From NCBI GenBank assembly GCA_947628485.1, contig CANRAA010000007.1:1-37701 (forward strand): a stretch of DNA of 37,701 nucleotides, in the 5' to 3' direction. The notes below the pieces were generated by a model. The model did no database searches and was not told the DNA's origin. It saw nothing but the letters and a program-made list of their open reading frames with translations. Shown piece after piece: positions 59-26,083 of this stretch. Source of the DNA: an uncultured Bacilli bacterium. Lineage in GTDB: Bacteria; Bacillota_I; Bacilli_A; RF39; UBA660. Every line of letters starts with the position of its first letter. Position 1 is the first letter of the stretch. Position numbers and translations under genes: made by a program.

Positions 59-1735
59 AAATTTAAAATTAACAATTTAGATCAAGTATGTATAACAGAG
101 ACAGATGATATAAACACATGTAATGGTAAATGGCAAAACATAACAGAAAACAATCAATATAGTTATACATTCCCAGATGGAACAGAAGGTGTAAAAGTAA
201 TATTTGGGTTTGTAAAAGATAGATATGGAAATAAATCGTTATCAATTAGTGATGTAATAACCTATGATGTAACACCACCAACAGTGTCATACAGTGTACC
301 AAGTGGAACATATAATGCTAACCAAACAGTAACAGTAACACCAAGTGATGCAGTATCAGGAGTAGGGGTATGGGCAGTACATACATATAATGCAGGAGCA
401 TTAAATTATAGTAATCAAGATTGGACAAAATCAAATAGTAATTTAACGGGATATCCAAGCTATGATGTAACATTAACAGAGGGGATATGGACAATATATT
501 CTAGTGTTTATGATAATGCAAGTAATATAATAGTACAAGAACCAAATAATGGAGATGGCTGGCATTATGAAACATACACGATAGATACAACGCCACCGAC
601 AGTATGGTATAGTTTATCAGAAGGGACATATACAGGAACTCAAACCTTAACCATAATACCAAATGATAACTTAACCGGAGTAGGAGTATGGGCAGTACAT
701 GTATATAAAGATGGAGTAAAGATAGAAGAACAATCAAATAATTATTTAACAGGACAACCTAATTTTACAGTAACCTTAACAGAAGGGAGTACATGGACGA
801 TATATGCTACTGTTTATGATAATGCAGGAAACTTAATAAATCAACAACCGAACAATGGAACATGGTTCTATCAAAACTATATAATACAATCAAATGGAGG
901 AGAAAACTTAAAAACATTACAATCAACAACAAGTACACAATACTTAAGAGAAGCATATTCAGGAGATGAATTGCTTCGATACATAGGAGAATATTCCGAG
1001 ATAACAAATAATTACATTTGTTTTGGAACAAGCGATGTAAATGCTTGTACAAGTAATCCAGATACATATATGTACAGAATAATAGGAATTCAAAAAAGTG
1101 ATAATGATACATTAGGATTAAAAATGAATCAATTAAAGATAATCAAAGCCACTCCAATAAAAAATGATGATGGTAAGGTAAGTGAAGGGGCGTGGTCAGC
1201 AGATGGCAATATTAATTGGGATCATGATAGAAATTCAGTAAGAACATATTTAAACACAACATTCTTAAGTACAATTGATGGAACATGGCAAACAATAATA
1301 AGCAATCCAAAATGGTATATGGGAGATAATGGTGAACTTGCAGCCACAGCAACAGGGATGATGTCAAACGAAAAAACAGCAACAACAAATGCATCATATA
1401 AGATAGGCTTAATGTATGCCAGTGATTATTATTACTCATGGGAATACCCAAGTAGTTGGTCTTCTGAAGACGTAAATACAAATAGTTGGTTACATATAGC
1501 CCACGGAACAAGTAGTAGTCCAACATATCCGAGTCGTGCCGAATGGACGATGGCTAGGTTCGGCAAATACAGTATCCACGGTTACTATGCGTGGGCGGTG
1601 TTTAATAGGGGCTTCGAGAGTAGGGAGCCCGTGGACAACGCGGGGGCGTTACGCCCGGTATTCTATCTATCGTCCAATATAAAGATATCGGGTAATGGAA
1701 TAGAAACTAGTCCATTCATAATAACTTTTACGTAG
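59..1735 (+). pseudogene. 5'-truncated surface protein: partial Ig-like repeats, then a DUF6273-like/CLec-like domain with DGR variable region VR2 at the C-terminus
   Basis: The frame stays open upstream of the ATG at 284 (FKINNLDQVCITETDDINTCNGKWQ...) to a TAG at 56-58 with no ATG/GTG/TTG start seen, so the N-terminus is missing. Two ~105-aa tandem repeats (TPPTVSYSVPSGTY... / TPPTVWYSLSEGTY...). The C-terminal half is homologous to ORF 20798-22006 (LLRYIGEYSEITNNYICFGTS...YRIIGIQ...LKIIKATP...). Confidence 0.6.
1555..1666 (+). other. DGR variable region VR2
   Basis: TAGGTTCGGC...GCGTGG..GTG...GCGTTACGCCCGGTATTCTAT is collinear with VR1 and the TR; encodes RFGKYSIHGYYAWAVFNRGFESREPVDNAGALRPVFY. 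Locally GC-rich compared with its surroundings. Confidence 0.75.
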
Positions 1736-20051: not shown

Positions 20052-20789
20052 TTGTGGAGGATTTGTGTGAAAATAAAGGATTTTGTGGAGAAAATTGGTT
20101 ATAGAAAGTTATCTTTAAGTATTATTGCTATCTTAATTGTGGCTTTAGGAGTATGGGGTATTAAGGGAACTCATGCTTTCTATAGTTATTCATCGGGACC
20201 TATTCAAATATTTAATAGTAAAGTAGGAAACTTTGCGGGTAAAGGAGATACTAGCCCTTTAACAGGTAGAACAACTGATATAAATGTACTATACTATGTT
20301 CAAGATATAACTGATCCTAAAAAGTATTCAGTTATGGTAAAACCTCCATTAGAAATTAAAGGTTTTGATGGTAAAACTGGTTTTACTATAGATCAAGAAA
20401 AGAGTAACTGTATACCAAAGAATGGTGCTAGTTATCCGGCGGATAATGGTAGCAATAATGGATACAAACTTAATGCCGATGGAACAGTTAGAATTACGGT
20501 GACTCAATCATCAGCCAATCAAGTAGTATGTAGATTATATTATACATTTGCCGATGATTTGAATGATGGAATAATTTTATTTGCAATGAAACAAGATGAA
20601 CACGGTAATGTTTCATATAATAATAATAAATATTCTATTGTGTCTGAAATACCAAGTGAATATACTTATAAGGGTTATAAATGTACTGATCAAACCGCAT
20701 CATCTTTTATTAAATATGATGCAAGTACTGGTTTTACATTTACAACAAATAAACCAAATGTCTGTTATGCATACTTTGATAAAAATTAG
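20052..20789 (+). CDS. membrane-anchored extracytoplasmic protein upstream of the DGR target
   Basis: N-terminal TM (LSLSIIAILIVALGVWGIKGTHAF); 8-nt gap to the next ORF, operon-like. Confidence 0.7.
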   Translation: MWRICVKIKDFVEKIGYRKLSLSIIAILIVALGVWGIKGTHAFYSYSSGPIQIFNSKVGNFAGKGDTSPLTGRTTDINVLYYVQDITDPKKYSVMVKPPLEIKGFDGKTGFTIDQEKSNCIPKNGASYPADNGSNNGYKLNADGTVRITVTQSSANQVVCRLYYTFADDLNDGIILFAMKQDEHGNVSYNNNKYSIVSEIPSEYTYKGYKCTDQTASSFIKYDASTGFTFTTNKPNVCYAYFDKN

Positions 20790-20797
20790 GAGGAATT

Positions 20798-22006
20798 ATG
20801 AAGAAAAAAGTATTTAAAAGTGTAATTGGAATATTAATTGTTATTGAAGGGGTATTTTTGTTCTTAAGTTATAAGTCTTATAATAATATTGATAAAGCAA
20901 AAGTTTTAGAAGATGTAAAATTAGCGGATATTTTAAAGGATAAAAAGAAAAGTTTAGCAATTCAAGTTCAAGATAGTAATTATCAATGGCAAGATCAAGG
21001 GACTACAACGGGATGGCCTGATAGTAATCATTATTATTATGGAACCAAATGTACTGATGAAACAGGAAAAGAAACAGCAAATACTAAACAAATAGTCCAA
21101 TTTGATGATACAACTAATACAGCCACAATTACGACTAAAGAAACGGTATATTGTACAATATACTTTGCTTATAAAAAAGATGCTTTAAGCTTAATGCAAG
21201 CAACAACTGATGGAAATCATTTAAAGACAATAAGTGGTGATGATAAATTAATAAGATACATAGGAAAATATAGCGAAATAACAAAAAATTATGTTTGTTT
21301 TGGAACAAGTAATATAGAAGATTGTAAAAAAGATAAAGATAAATATATGTATCGAATAATAGGAATACAAGCCCAAGATGATGATACGGTTGAATTAAAA
21401 CAAAATCAATTAAAAATAATCAAAGCCACCCCTAAAATAAATAATAGTATTAAAACCATAGCATGGTCAGAAAATTATAGTACGGATATAAATTGGGATA
21501 ATACAAACAATACAGTAAGAAAATATTTAAATGATGGAACAAGTGGTTTTTTAAAAACAATTAATGATATGGGAGGAAGTTGGAGCAATTTAATAAGTGA
21601 TCCGAAATGGTATATAGGAGATGATACAACAGCCACAACAGCAACAGGAATATCAAGCGAAAAAAATAAGCAAACAACAAATAAATATAAAGTAGGTTTA
21701 ATGTACGCAAGTGATTATTATAACTCATGGACATACACATCAAATACCGAAAGTTGGTTGCATATAATACACGGAACAAGTAGTAGCAGTTCAGCATATA
21801 GTAGTACCTACGAATGGACAATGACTAGGTATGGCTACAACAGCGATTACACTGCGTGGGGTGTGAATACGAGCGGCTCCTTGCGCTTTGACGGTGTGTA
21901 CTGGACTACGCCTGCGGTTCGCCCAGTCTTCTATCTATCATCCAATATAAAGTTATCAGGTAGTGGAACAGAATCTAGTCCATTCATAATAACTTTTACG
22001 AGGTGA
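20798..22006 (+). CDS. DGR target protein: membrane anchored, DUF6273-like/CLec-like domain with C-terminal VR1
   Basis: N-terminal TM; YRIIGIQAQDDDTVELKQNQLKIIKATP...; C-terminal RYGYNSDYTAWGVNTSGSLRFDGVYWTTPAVRPVFYLSS matches the adjacent TR. Confidence 0.88.
   Translation: MKKKVFKSVIGILIVIEGVFLFLSYKSYNNIDKAKVLEDVKLADILKDKKKSLAIQVQDSNYQWQDQGTTTGWPDSNHYYYGTKCTDETGKETANTKQIVQFDDTTNTATITTKETVYCTIYFAYKKDALSLMQATTDGNHLKTISGDDKLIRYIGKYSEITKNYVCFGTSNIEDCKKDKDKYMYRIIGIQAQDDDTVELKQNQLKIIKATPKINNSIKTIAWSENYSTDINWDNTNNTVRKYLNDGTSGFLKTINDMGGSWSNLISDPKWYIGDDTTATTATGISSEKNKQTTNKYKVGLMYASDYYNSWTYTSNTESWLHIIHGTSSSSSAYSSTYEWTMTRYGYNSDYTAWGVNTSGSLRFDGVYWTTPAVRPVFYLSSNIKLSGSGTESSPFIITFTR
21826..21934 (+). 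other. DGR variable region VR1
   Basis: Shares TAGGTATGGCT, GCGTGG, GTGAATAC, AGCGGC, GCGGTTCGCCCAG and CTTCTAT with the TR. From GCGTGG to the 3' end, 17 of 19 substitutions in my manual alignment fall at TR adenines. Confidence 0.9.
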
Positions 22007-22097
22007 TAATATATCGCCCAAGGCGGCATTATGGCGCCTAGGCGATTCGCGTTAGCGATTAATTATAAATATAAAATTTAAAACCAATAAAAATGTT

Positions 22098-22138
22098 AAA
22101 AAGTGAAAAAGATTAGACACCACATTTTTCACTTTTTT
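22098..22138 (+). terminator. terminator of the VR1 gene
   Basis: AAAAAGTGAAAAA (22098-22110) / TTTTTCACTTTTT (22125-22137). Confidence 0.85.
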
Positions 22139-22156
22139 AAATTATTAAAAATATTG

Positions 22157-22162
22157 TATAAT
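22157..22162 (+). promoter_or_regulatory. -10 box of the TR RNA
   Basis: TATAAT, 6 nt before the start of the segment conserved in the second copy (AGGTAATCTTGATATA at 22169); weak -35. Confidence 0.5.
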
Positions 22163-22168
22163 ATAGAT

Positions 22169-22430
22169 AGGTAATCTTGATATAATGTTAGGTATGGCTT
22201 AAACAGCAGCAATTATCGGGCGTGGAATGTGAATACAAGCGGCAACTTGAACAATAACAATGTGAACAATACGAATGCGGTTCGCCCAGCCTTCTATGAC
22301 TTGAATGAATATATGGTTAAGACTATATACTAGGGAAGATAGAAGACAAAGATTATCTGGGATAAATTTCCAAACTAAAAACGAGGATGATAAATTTTAC
22401 GAGATTTATCTATTACCTCGTTATTTTTTT
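22169..22430 (+). ncRNA. DGR template RNA containing the TR (22189-22297) and a structured 3' spacer
   Basis: TR core AACTTGAACAATAACAATGTGAACAATACGAAT is AAC/AAT-rich; flanks are duplicated at 23681-23821; 5' AGGTAAT (22169-22175) is complementary to 3' ATTACCT (22412-22418); ends at a T-tract. Confidence 0.75.
22380..22430 (+). terminator. terminator of the TR RNA
   Basis: AACGAGG (22380-22386) / CCTCGTT (22416-22422) and inner GATAAAT / ATTTATC, then ATTTTTTT. Confidence 0.8.
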
Positions 22431-22603
22431 GATTTTTACAACAAATGTGTTCTTTTTTAAAAGAAATTTCGCGAAAAAAAAGGAAATCAGAGATTTTTTT
22501 ACAATAATATAAGTGAAGGGAGGAAAAATAGCACCTTAAATTTTAATAGTAAAAAAAGAATAAAAAATGGTTAATTAGTTGAGTAAAAGAAGGAGGAGAT
22601 TTA

Positions 22604-23488
22604 ATGCTAGCAGAAAAAATAGAAAATGAATTAGTAGAACAAAATGGAGAAAATAAAAAAGTTGATTTTTATCATTTAAAATATGATAGAGTATTTAAAA
22701 AAGTAGTAGATGTTAATCCAGAAGTATTAGAGAAAGTACTAACCGATATTTTAGAGGAAGAAGTAAAGATAATTAGTTTTGTACCTACAGAACTTCCTAT
22801 TAAGAATGTAAAGAGTAAAGTAAATACATTAGATATTTTAGTTAAGACTAAAGATAACCAAATTTTAAATATTGAGCTTAACACAAATTTTGATAAAGTA
22901 ACTAAAGAAAGAAATCTAGTATATTATACAACTTTGTATTCGCAAAAGAAATTAAGAGGAGAATATATTGAAGATATTGATGAAAAATTAGAAGTATTAC
23001 ATATCGATATTAATTTTAATGAGAGTAAAAAAGAAGAAGAAAAGAAAGTATTTTATGTGCAAAACGAGAAAGGAATAAAATACAGCGAAAGCTTTAAAAT
23101 TATCACCGTAAACATTGCTAAGTACAAGCATATGTGGTATGATAAAAACATAAAAGGTGATAAAACTCACATTTATTTAGTAATGTTAGATGCTAATAAA
23201 GAGGAGTTAAGAAAGTTAGCTAAAGTGGATAAGTTAGTTAAGGGAGTGGATGAAGAAGTGGAAAAACTAAATTCTGATGAAGTATTTATAAAAGAAATCA
23301 GTAGAGAAGAAGAAATGAAGATAAGAGAACAAATGCGAGTTAAAATGGCCAAAAAAGAAGGCATTGAAGAAGGAAAAACAAATAAAGCTAATGCTATTGC
23401 TAAGAATATGCTTGAATCAGGAGAAAGAGAAGAAAAAATATTAAAGTATACGGGATTATCTAAAGAAGAATTAGAAAAATTAAAATAA
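22604..23488 (+). CDS. Rpn/PD-(D/E)XK nuclease-family transposase-like protein
   Basis: YDRVFKKVVDVNPEVLEKVLTDILEEEVKIISFVPTELP..., VNTLDILVKTKDNQILNIELNTNF (D...ExN nuclease-like motif), C-terminal EGIEEGKTNKANAIAKNMLESGEREEKILKYTGLSKEELEKLK. Confidence 0.85.
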   Translation: MLAEKIENELVEQNGENKKVDFYHLKYDRVFKKVVDVNPEVLEKVLTDILEEEVKIISFVPTELPIKNVKSKVNTLDILVKTKDNQILNIELNTNFDKVTKERNLVYYTTLYSQKKLRGEYIEDIDEKLEVLHIDINFNESKKEEEKKVFYVQNEKGIKYSESFKIITVNIAKYKHMWYDKNIKGDKTHIYLVMLDANKEELRKLAKVDKLVKGVDEEVEKLNSDEVFIKEISREEEMKIREQMRVKMAKKEGIEEGKTNKANAIAKNMLESGEREEKILKYTGLSKEELEKLK

Positions 23489-23546
23489 GTTATATAAAAA
23501 CAGTGATAGTGCTAATATAAAAATGTAATATTTGGTCCATATAATT

Positions 23547-23570
23547 ATGTAGGAAATCCTACATTTTTTT
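23547..23570 (+). terminator. terminator after the Rpn-like gene
   Basis: ATGTAGG AAAT CCTACAT TTTTTTC. Confidence 0.75.
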
Positions 23571-23680
23571 CTTACATTTTTATAGTACCATTAACAGAAG
23601 CTAAAGTGAAAAGAAAAAATGAGAAAGAAAAAAGAATGGATGTAGGTAGTTGTCGAAACTACAAAAGGTGACATTACAAA

Positions 23681-23821
23681 TAGGTAATCTTGATATAGGT
23701 GATAGTAGGTATGGCTATATACTAGGGAAGATGCGAAGACAAAGATTATTTAGGATTTTATCCAAACTAAAAACGGAGATAATAAGTTTTACGAGACTAA
23801 TCTATTACCTCGTTATTTTTT
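23681..23821 (+). repeat. second copy of the TR-RNA flanks lacking the TR core
   Basis: TAGGTAATCTTGATATA...TAGGTATGGCT|ATATACTAGGGAAGAT.GAAGACAAAGATTAT...CCAAACTAAAAACG...TTTTACGAGA...ATCTATTACCTCGTTATTTTTT matches 22168-22199 + 22325-22430. Confidence 0.9.
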
Positions 23822-23959
23822 CTCGCAAAAAGAGAATTTAAAAATTTTATATTTAAAGATTAGAAAAATAATGTTATAATCATCTTAAGAGTAGGTAGGT
23901 GATGAAGTTATAAATAAAATTATGAGAAATGCGACAAAGTAAAAAAGGAGTGGTGAAAA

Positions 23960-24340
23960 ATTAAAAACGACGTAGTTGAACTAAGACGTTCCGGCAAATT
24001 TTATAATGTCTTTGGAGATGATGCGATTGTCATTCATTATATTACCGGTTATAAAATTGTGGCGGAAAAAGGTGGGGTCGGATTTCCGGAAACTGCCTAT
24101 AACAAAGTTATAAATGCTTTACTAGACAATGAAATATCTTATGTTGTTTATGAGAAAAACGAGAAAAAAGATGAAAAAAATTTTAAAAAAATTAATAATT
24201 ACAAAAATATTCTTAAAAAAGGAATTAGCGAATTATCTATTGAAGAAAGGTTTCAAAAAATAGAAACCGCTATTCGGAAACTTAATGCTAAAGAACTAGA
24301 CCATATACTTGAAGTAATTGAAGATGCAATATCGAACTGA
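23960..24340 (+). CDS. MutS-domain-I-like DGR accessory protein (MSL-type)
   Basis: In-frame extension upstream of the GTG at 24059: IKNDVVELRRSGKFYNVFGDDAIVIHYITGYKIVAEKGGVGFPETAYNKVINALLDNEISYVVYEK resembles the MutS N-terminal domain; AAGGAG RBS at 23945-23950; ATT start or 1-nt frameshift. Confidence 0.65.
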   Translation: MKNDVVELRRSGKFYNVFGDDAIVIHYITGYKIVAEKGGVGFPETAYNKVINALLDNEISYVVYEKNEKKDEKNFKKINNYKNILKKGISELSIEERFQKIETAIRKLNAKELDHILEVIEDAISN

Positions 24341-24704
24341 AAAATTTTTAATAATTAAAAATATGAAAAAATTCATTTTGGGGTTAGAAACGATGTTAGT
24401 TAATTTTCCTAGAAAAGAATTTTTGACTAAAGATATGATTTATAAAGATGCTTTAAAAGTTTTAGAATTAGTTTTTATTGCTAATGAAATAGAAGATATT
24501 AAAGAAAAAAATCATTTGCAAATAGAAATATTAGCCAAAATTAACATGCTGGATTTTTATTTAGAAAGAGCTTATAAGAAAAAATATATTAATGAAAAAC
24601 AATGTTTAAATAAATCAAATGAACTTGAGGCCATTTCCAAAATGGTTTATAGGTGGATAAAATATAGTATCCAAGAAAGTAAAAGTAATGAAGGAACATT
24701 GTAA
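24318..24704 (+). CDS. avd: Avd-like DGR accessory variability determinant (four-helix bundle)
   Basis: Directly upstream of the RT; LETMLVNFPRKEFLTKDMIYKDALKVLELVFIANEI...ILAKINMLDFYLERAYKKKYINEKQCLNKSNELEAISKMVYRWIKY. True start may be the internal ATG at 24363. Confidence 0.8.
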   Translation: MKMQYRTEKFLIIKNMKKFILGLETMLVNFPRKEFLTKDMIYKDALKVLELVFIANEIEDIKEKNHLQIEILAKINMLDFYLERAYKKKYINEKQCLNKSNELEAISKMVYRWIKYSIQESKSNEGTL

Positions 24705-25812
24705 TTTAGATACCATTTTAAATTTATATGAAAAAGAAATATCTAAAAATGTCAAAAACAAACATAAAGTATATATGTTTGAAAAGAACAAATTTCAAAA
24801 TTTAAATCATATAATAAGAGTCCTTCAAACAGGGAATTATGATGGAGGAAAATATAATATCTTTTTAATTAAAGAACCTAAGCATCGAATAGTTATGGCT
24901 TTAAGTATCACGGATAAAATTATTAATCATTTTGTAGCGAGATATGTTTTAGAGGTAAAGCTATCTAAATATTTAGATGACCGAAATATTGCGACCCGTA
25001 AAGGTATGGGTACGGATTATGGAATTAAAATGGTTAAAAAATTTTTAGAGAAAAACAAAAAATATGAAACTTTTTATATTTTAAAACTAGACATAAGCAA
25101 ATATTTTTATTCTATAGATCATGAAGTTTTAATGAGTCTTGTTAAAGATAAGTTATCAAAAGAAGAATATGACTTTTTAAAAATAATTATTGATAGTACC
25201 AATGAAGAATATATAAATAAAATTATTAAAACGATTAAAACAAATTATATAAAGAAACACCCACAGTTTAAAAAAGAAATTGATAGTCTACCTTATTATG
25301 AGTATGGTAAAGGATTACCTATTGGAAATATGACTAGTCAATTTTTATCTATTTTTTATTTATATGAATTAGACCATTATATTGTGCATAATTTACATAT
25401 TAAATATTATGTGCGTTATATGGATGATTTTGTTTTAATTCATCATGATAAGAAAGTCTTAGAAAATGCTTTAAAAGAAATTGAAACTATTTTAAATACT
25501 AAGTATAAATTAAAATTAAATAGTAAAAAGACCAAAATAGTAAAAAATAACGAAGGGTTTGTTTTCTTAGGATACAATTATAAAGTAATAGGTAAGAAGA
25601 CAATTGTTAGATTAAGAAGAGAAGCCTATGAAAAAACGAAAAAGCGAGTTAAAAGAACTTATTATATGTATGAACATGGTTTTATCTCTTTTAATGAAGC
25701 TTTTTGCTCGATAATGAGTTATTGGTACAATCGGAAATATGGAAGTCAAATGAAAGTTAGAAGGGCAATCAATAAATATTGGTTTGAAAGGGTTCATGGC
25801 ATACCAAAATAG
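24688..25812 (+). CDS. DGR reverse transcriptase
   Basis: LPIGNMTSQFLSIFYLYELDHYI (GxxxSQ, typical of DGR RTs), YYVRYMDDFVLI, LKLNSKKTKIV...FLGYNYK. Confidence 0.95.
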   Translation: MKEHCNLDTILNLYEKEISKNVKNKHKVYMFEKNKFQNLNHIIRVLQTGNYDGGKYNIFLIKEPKHRIVMALSITDKIINHFVARYVLEVKLSKYLDDRNIATRKGMGTDYGIKMVKKFLEKNKKYETFYILKLDISKYFYSIDHEVLMSLVKDKLSKEEYDFLKIIIDSTNEEYINKIIKTIKTNYIKKHPQFKKEIDSLPYYEYGKGLPIGNMTSQFLSIFYLYELDHYIVHNLHIKYYVRYMDDFVLIHHDKKVLENALKEIETILNTKYKLKLNSKKTKIVKNNEGFVFLGYNYKVIGKKTIVRLRREAYEKTKKRVKRTYYMYEHGFISFNEAFCSIMSYWYNRKYGSQMKVRRAINKYWFERVHGIPK

Positions 25813-26083
25813 ATACATTTTTATTAAAAGAACTTATCCCAAGACCATTGTATTATTTCAAAAAGATAATAGGTATATTGGTTATAAAGAAGATAAAGAA
25901 TTATTAAGATTTTTAAAATTTCGCAAATTAAAAGATTTAGAACGTTTAAAAATAAATTATATTATTGTAAGAAATATGGAAATAATAGACCATCAAGAAT
26001 ATGAAAATAATATGTATAATATCTATTATTTAAGATTTAGATTAACTAATTTAATTAATTCTTGGAAAGATTTAATAAATTAA
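25796..26083 (+). CDS. small ORF overlapping the RT 3' end, possible DGR-associated protein
   Basis: MAYQNRYIFIKRTYPKTIVLFQKDNRYIGYKEDKELLRFLKF...; overlaps the RT stop. Confidence 0.65.
   Translation: MAYQNRYIFIKRTYPKTIVLFQKDNRYIGYKEDKELLRFLKFRKLKDLERLKINYIIVRNMEIIDHQEYENNMYNIYYLRFRLTNLINSWKDLIN

Follow-up and report, generated by a model that had tools for sequence, protein, structure and literature searches.

Diversity-generating retroelements (DGRs) are usually described as cassettes of one reverse transcriptase (RT), one template repeat (TR) and one or a few variable repeats (VRs). Does the locus at 20,052-26,083 of contig CANRAA010000007.1, from an uncultured Bacilli bacterium, fit this description? 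The initial annotation of this 37,701-nt contig (the window, analysed at its whole length) had read the locus as a complete DGR. The window is contig C7 of the source genome, here G000, a Bacilli metagenome-assembled genome (MAG) of 1.30 Mb in 98 contigs with 89.6% completeness, and housekeeping genes of chromosomal type (nusA, infB and pnp) are among the neighbours within the window. We found that the DGR is real, with RT, Avd, MSL, TR and VR all present; the one-TR-one-VR cassette did not stand, and the window shows only a hub. At the sequence level, one RT of its clade, six structured TR genes, an adenine bias, pairing in trans and exact mosaics were evident. We therefore consider it probable (about 0.8) that the window is the hub of a multi-template DGR, in which one operon of RT, Avd and MSL serves scattered TR-RNA genes in trans.

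All window features described here lie on the + strand. The RT gene (RT P0004, 24688..25812) matched PHROG 1423 (1e-72), a family named simply 'Reverse transcriptase', and PF00078 (4e-18). Its translation contains IGNMTSQ and YMDD, in agreement with the GxxxSQ and YMDD motifs first annotated; this is the DGR signature, in which [I/V/L]GxxxSQ replaces QGxxxSP and YxDD is present. By best match, the closest PDB chain was 8ub7 (1e-22), taken here to be the BPP-1 enzyme, and the runner-up scored 4e-9. DGR accessory genes encode Avd, HRDC or MSL, and both Avd and MSL are present here. The gene annotated as Avd-like (bAvd-like, 24318..24704) matched PHROG 3206, 'Avd protein of DGR', at 3e-15, and NF033474 at 2e-8, below its cut-off. 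The MSL (MutS domain I-like) gene (23960..24340; PF01624, 8e-9; 70-99% identical in relatives) encodes a stand-alone MutS domain I protein of PF01624 type and adjoins avd and the RT gene.

RT P0004 is the single copy of its clade in the source genome, clade membership being called from best matches and motif. The same genome contains six complete TR-RNA genes, or seven cassettes when one without a TR is counted. The TR that had been annotated in the window is real, and what had been missed was a second cassette at 23682-23821, whose TR is lost, and five more complete TRs in the genome. A second RT was observed in G000 (C24:5882-6457; L239:1345-2316) and also in G008; this RVT_1 match has YSDD and was rejected as a DGR RT, as GxxxSQ is absent and it looks retron-like by inspection.

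We then compared 38 genomes of the same genus and a wider family sample of 295 genomes, using bins that are 81-94% complete. The named same-genus genomes are uncultured Bacilli MAGs from rabbit ('Lapin') and goat rectum, which supports the earlier suggestion of a host-associated organism. Of the 38 genomes, 14 contain the conserved 3' arm of the TR RNA and 19 gave an RT match, and TR cassettes accompany exactly one RT of the clade in 12, with 1-13 TR RNAs each. The cassettes numbered 13 in G008, 12 in G031 (a figure that includes truncated cassettes at contig ends and TR-less ones), 6 in both G003 and G023, 4 in both G025 and G032, and 1-3 in the remainder; in G030, two RTs of the clade were seen. 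Outside the genus but within the family, the RNA was detected in 15/295 genomes, at one or two copies each. Four cassettes lie on a single 51-kb contig of G008 (C6), and four together with the RT lie on contig C21 of G032, so mis-binning fails to explain the multiplicity. A different arrangement was seen in G025 (C11:9105-10189), where four tandem TR cassettes 5' of the operon have another template type (TTCAATGGGCACAATGTG) with VRs that are barely seen by our sequence model.

What kind of element is a cassette? Alignment of the six cassettes revealed a conserved, sharply bounded block of about 270 nt. In the window, folds and covariation place the TR-RNA gene at 22169..22430. A TATAAT box (22157..22162, at the same position in 31/32 cassettes with an intact 5' end) lies 5-8 nt 5' of AGGTAATCTT. 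Together with AAGATTATCT, located 3' of the TR, AGGTAATCTT forms helix P1 (5' arm 22169-22178, 3' arm 22349-22358; 10/10 pairs in 32/32 cassettes). P1 would thus enclose the TR, and the RNA presumably begins at this helix. The TR (22189..22297) ends in CTTCTAT, which pairs with ATAGAAG of the 3' arm (P2, 22291-22297 with 22339-22345, from folds and covariation). A small hairpin and a terminator hairpin (22380-22422) with a T run follow, giving the 3' end of the gene. Across 20 cassettes from eight genomes, 15/35 predicted base pairs of the 3' arm showed a compensatory change. The second window cassette (23682..23821) lies directly upstream of MSL with its TR deleted, and G031 retains a 117-nt TR at the same place. 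Judged from these sequence features, each TR is a free-standing RNA gene, presumably transcribed, with a promoter box, an enclosing helix, a structured 3' arm and a terminator. By analogy with phage BPP-1, the 3' arm is presumed to be the site of RT-Avd binding and cDNA priming. The TR RNA had no match in Rfam, and an exact search of IMG/VR found no copy of the 3' arm, so there is no sign in that database that phages carry it.

The TRs themselves vary in length in 3-nt steps and differ in fixed codons, and both TR parts kept the coding frame in 36/36 TRs measured. We rejected the idea that TRs differ from one another only at A, as TR-TR difference rates were flat across bases (0.15-0.17). Nor is faster evolution of TR cores than of the flanking sequence a general rule, as it holds for only some orthologous pairs.

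To assess adenine bias, we used the 66 best TR-VR pairs of seven genomes, with alignments that do not favour A. The change rate was 0.52 at template A (1078/2090), compared with 0.13 at C (160/1221), 0.12 at G (207/1733) and 0.11 at T (155/1407), and the bias that had been predicted thus holds; we give no p value because the VRs are not independent. Some pairs were exact, the VR edge and the constant TR/VR 3'-end difference excepted. VR C7:7919 of G032 has no internal non-A difference from TR C21:6487 and 20/37 A changed, and the two lie on different contigs, that is, in trans. Likewise, G003 C26:14463 with TR C26:15724 (15/29 A changed) and G009 C7:12063 with TR C7:12386 (16/37 A changed) were exact at non-A positions. 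TR and VR differ almost only at TR adenines in these three pairs and in the mosaic VR on contig C55 described below; the annotated VR of the window, VR1, retains 2 non-A mismatches.

Which template wrote VR1 (21826..21934)? Used as a genome query, the window TR matched VR1 at E=6e-13, so the two are paralogous repeats, as first annotated. Their pairing as one cassette did not survive: VR1 fits the TR on contig C20 better, and the window TR is the 3' template of the VR on C55, elsewhere in the genome. Against TR C20, VR1 has 15/30 A and 2/68 non-A positions changed, the latter internal, and no gap; against the adjacent window TR it has 6 non-A changes and two gaps. The ungapped alignment of VR1 with the window TR fails because of two in-frame 3-nt indels (offset 363 to 366 and back to 363). 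VR1 and TR C20 share a TGGACTACGCCT segment that is absent in the window TR. Because the RT-proximal cassette of G031 also bears TGGACTACGCCT, VR1 may have been written by an RT-proximal TR later deleted at this locus, as far as these segments indicate.

We further tested for mosaics by dividing each VR into two parts at the conserved GCGTGG and requiring zero non-A mismatches. The 5' part of VR C55 matched TR C20 exactly, while its 3' 67 nt had the window TR as exact non-A template (14 A changed, 0/43 non-A). VR C21:2676 of G032 is a mosaic of TR 5021 followed by TR 2988, with 0 non-A mismatches in either part. Exact 3' parts were found in 5/288 own-genome pairs, in 1/524 pairs with other genomes of the same clade and in 0/556 with the other clade. 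Exact 5' parts also occurred against TRs of other species in a genome trio (7/466), which common descent of the TRs would lead one to expect. The window TR was the closest 3' donor of five mosaic VRs (C55, C45, C40, C23 and C89) and the closest 5' donor of none listed. Partial homing from the 3' side would be the simplest mechanism for such mosaics.

These data suggest the following mechanism for a multi-template DGR. Each TR RNA would be produced from its own promoter and would have an enclosing helix, a structured 3' arm and its own terminator. The RT would bind this RNA, copy the TR and err at adenines, and the cDNA would overwrite a VR, wholly or in its 3' part, at any one of the roughly 25 related target sites. 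VRs would become mosaics of several templates with added adenine mutations, because TRs differ in length and fixed codons and partial homing would leave the older 5' part in place. The system may still be active at present. A broader proposal is combinatorial diversification, in which a menu of template RNA genes that vary in length and fixed codons, amplified in the genus perhaps with the help of Rpn-type transposases, is written piecewise into dozens of targets by one RT in trans, each VR being a mosaic plus adenine hypermutation. It could be compared loosely with germline segments and somatic mutation, and we hold it tentatively, at a little under even odds.

The targets are numerous. The gene that carries VR1 (20798..22006) encodes, as annotated and seen in its translation, a protein with an N-terminal hydrophobic segment, and its C-terminal variable domain is homologous in many paralogues. 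VR1 was not the only VR: a second in the window (1555-1666) and about 23 further VR-like sites elsewhere in the genome had been overlooked. The second VR was detected by sequence model R1 (E=1.7e-15) in a gene at 284..1735 whose 5' end is possibly cut by the contig edge, and its protein and the VR1 protein share 54% identity across the C-terminal domain. The VR/TR sequence model gave 35 matches in G000, 52 in G008 and 32 in G031, leaving 25, 35 and 21 VR-like sites after TR removal (two G031 entries were reassigned to TR). The highest count, 46, was in G009, which has one TR; its VRs are often paired about 0.9 kb apart, and one pair appears to lie inside a single 730-aa open frame (L176:11760-13952). 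Orthologous VRs of different species were 61-81% identical, versus 64-91% in the 250 nt upstream.

Target proteins have in common a C-terminal domain in which the motifs EWTM and RPVFYL are strongly conserved, and those with an intact start have N-terminal hydrophobic segments; on the basis of this segment we call them putative surface proteins. No relative of the VR domain was found in Pfam or PDB, so a C-type lectin fold stays an expectation, and a structure model of the domain had poor confidence (pLDDT 38) and was too poor for use. In addition, a near-identical palindrome, AAGTTCGACA..TGTCGAATTTTGT, occurs about 85-210 nt 3' of many VRs (e.g. G000 C55:5431-5457, C80:2739-2765 and C81:2759-2784). 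G000, G008 and G031 hold 21 copies, most of them closely behind a VR match, some of these weak. The palindrome might act as a common terminator of these genes, or it might be the stem-loop of a DGR target.

Several observations weigh against the multi-template reading, and some of them speak for other explanations. The locus might be an ordinary one-TR DGR whose other cassettes are dead repeats resembling miniature inverted-repeat transposable elements, perhaps spread by Rpn, with VR paralogues that inherit old mutations. Rpn-family genes do lie near cassettes: 15/32 are within 1 kb of a TR cassette in five genomes, with about 0.5 expected by a rough estimate. This is a correlation only, and such genes could mobilise the cassettes or insert at the same sites; in G003, six TRs occur but no Rpn match was obtained. 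Two cassettes lack a TR (window 23682-23821 and G031 C11:3884), and some TRs without a matching VR may be dead. G037, which is 94% complete, retains 9 or 10 TR cassettes (C3, C4, C17, C22, C37 and C38), and an RT search of this genome gave no RVT_1 match at all; its RT was either lost or is absent from the assembly. However, the promoter box, P1 and the terminator have been retained, with compensatory changes, the parts of all TRs measured are in frame, and separate TRs are exact templates of separate VR parts in both G000 and G032, all of which make dead copies improbable. Still less credible is an origin of the pattern in ordinary paralogous domains that diverged via duplication and gene conversion, not DGR mutagenesis. 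The target family is indeed large and paralogous, and many TR-VR pairs have non-A differences, but changes concentrate at A (0.52 vs 0.11-0.13 elsewhere), exact non-A matches occur with up to 20 A changed, and RT, Avd and MSL are present; we consider this explanation very remote.

A further point against our reading is that only 9/38 VRs tested have an exact half, and for most VRs none of the TRs found is an exact template. The true templates of inexact VRs may be missing, as bins are incomplete and cassettes often lie at contig ends, or templates may have turned over, or many VRs may be old. This leads to a sub-case of the multi-template DGR, not exclusive of it, in which recombination plays no part: each VR would have its own TR, many TRs would be unassembled, and mosaics would reflect unseen TRs. 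Cassettes that end contigs (G031 C12, C50 and C63), the incompleteness of the bins and the different TR cores that orthologous TR loci can carry all fit this idea. Yet VR C21:2676 of G032 is an exact two-TR mosaic despite four TRs on one contig, and among the VRs listed the window TR is the best donor of 3' parts only. We regard absence of recombination as possible but rather unlikely.

From 20 kb onwards, the hub of the multi-template DGR contains, in order, a protein gene with a hydrophobic segment, the VR1 target gene, the TR cassette, an Rpn gene, the TR-less cassette and an operon of MSL, Avd, RT and a 95-aa gene. The first gene (20067..20789) encodes a protein with an N-terminal hydrophobic segment and no VR; the annotated gene is sound, and its start moves from 20052 to the GTG at 20067 behind GGAGG. 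Family profile searches gave no family above cut-off for it. Directly 3' of the target gene stop lies a GC-rich inverted repeat (22013..22046), and a similar hairpin is found at RT loci of relatives. Between the TR cassette and the RT operon, as a correction to the initial annotation, is an Rpn-family PD-(D/E)XK putative transposase gene (22604..23488; PF12784, 5e-12; TIGR01784, 4e-16) that passes the NCBIfam cut-off of TIGR01784 (59.5 bits vs 52.1).

The MutS-I-like gene was rightly annotated, and its start was corrected. The conserved start region (window 23951-23970 and the loci of 7 relatives) contains no ATG, GTG or TTG; all eight MSL orthologues start with ATT or ATA behind an AG-rich stretch, which in the window is an ATT near 23960, and an in-frame TGA lies two codons 5' of the start in the source genome. 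From this alignment, MSL likely uses a non-canonical start codon. The last open reading frame (25796..26083), 3' of the RT gene, proved to be a conserved 95-aa gene, present in 8/8 loci checked and 46-95% identical in relatives. Its product matched no Pfam or NCBIfam family, a second MutS-I domain was rejected (hhalign probability only 6%), and its structure model was too poor for use. This gene is a candidate new DGR accessory gene.

How does this layout relate to known DGRs? Like the DGR of Bordetella phage BPP-1 (avd-TR-brt, mtd; mechanism in PMC12875486), it has a GxxxSQ RT, Avd, adenine mutagenesis between TR and VR, a structured RNA 3' of the TR that pairs at the TR 3' end, and an IMH-like difference at the TR/VR 3' end. 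Unlike BPP-1, which has one TR beside the RT and a single target, it has many free-standing TR genes, an added MSL and about 25 target sites. In Thiohalocapsa PB-PSB1, VRs matching a remote TR were taken as trans action and transposons were tied to locus duplication (PMC10907252); the fit to remote TRs and the transposon link are similar here, whereas PB-PSB1 has several RT-bearing loci and our genomes have one RT with RT-less TR-RNA genes. Trichodesmium erythraeum also has remote targets, with 18 loci of TR/VR homology, expressed TR RNA and two DGR RTs (PMC8867640), compared here with a single RT and as many as 46 VR-like sites (in G009). The portion of the MetaCSST report considered here (PMC6642488) gives more than one TR for roughly one in five of the DGRs that have several VRs and calls a 6-TR example, Pseudomonas costantinii, atypical, with few A-to-N changes; that portion describes no TR-RNA gene family, structure or mosaics. 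MSL was named as a MutS-I-like DGR accessory gene in PMC10053308, and the multi-TR organisation and the extra 95-aa gene after the RT distinguish our locus from the MSL-associated DGRs. Open-access PMC papers, which exclude paywalled papers and preprints, yielded no DGR of this layout.

We conclude that the multi-template, trans-acting layout is a variation on known DGRs. In these genomes, stand-alone structured RNA genes form a TR family for one RT; a genome can have as many as 13 cassettes, and targets run into the tens. If this is true, detection tools that look only near the RT would overlook the majority of templates and targets. In these bacteria, what to write would also be separate from the writer, and length and scaffold would be variable in the targets besides the adenine positions.

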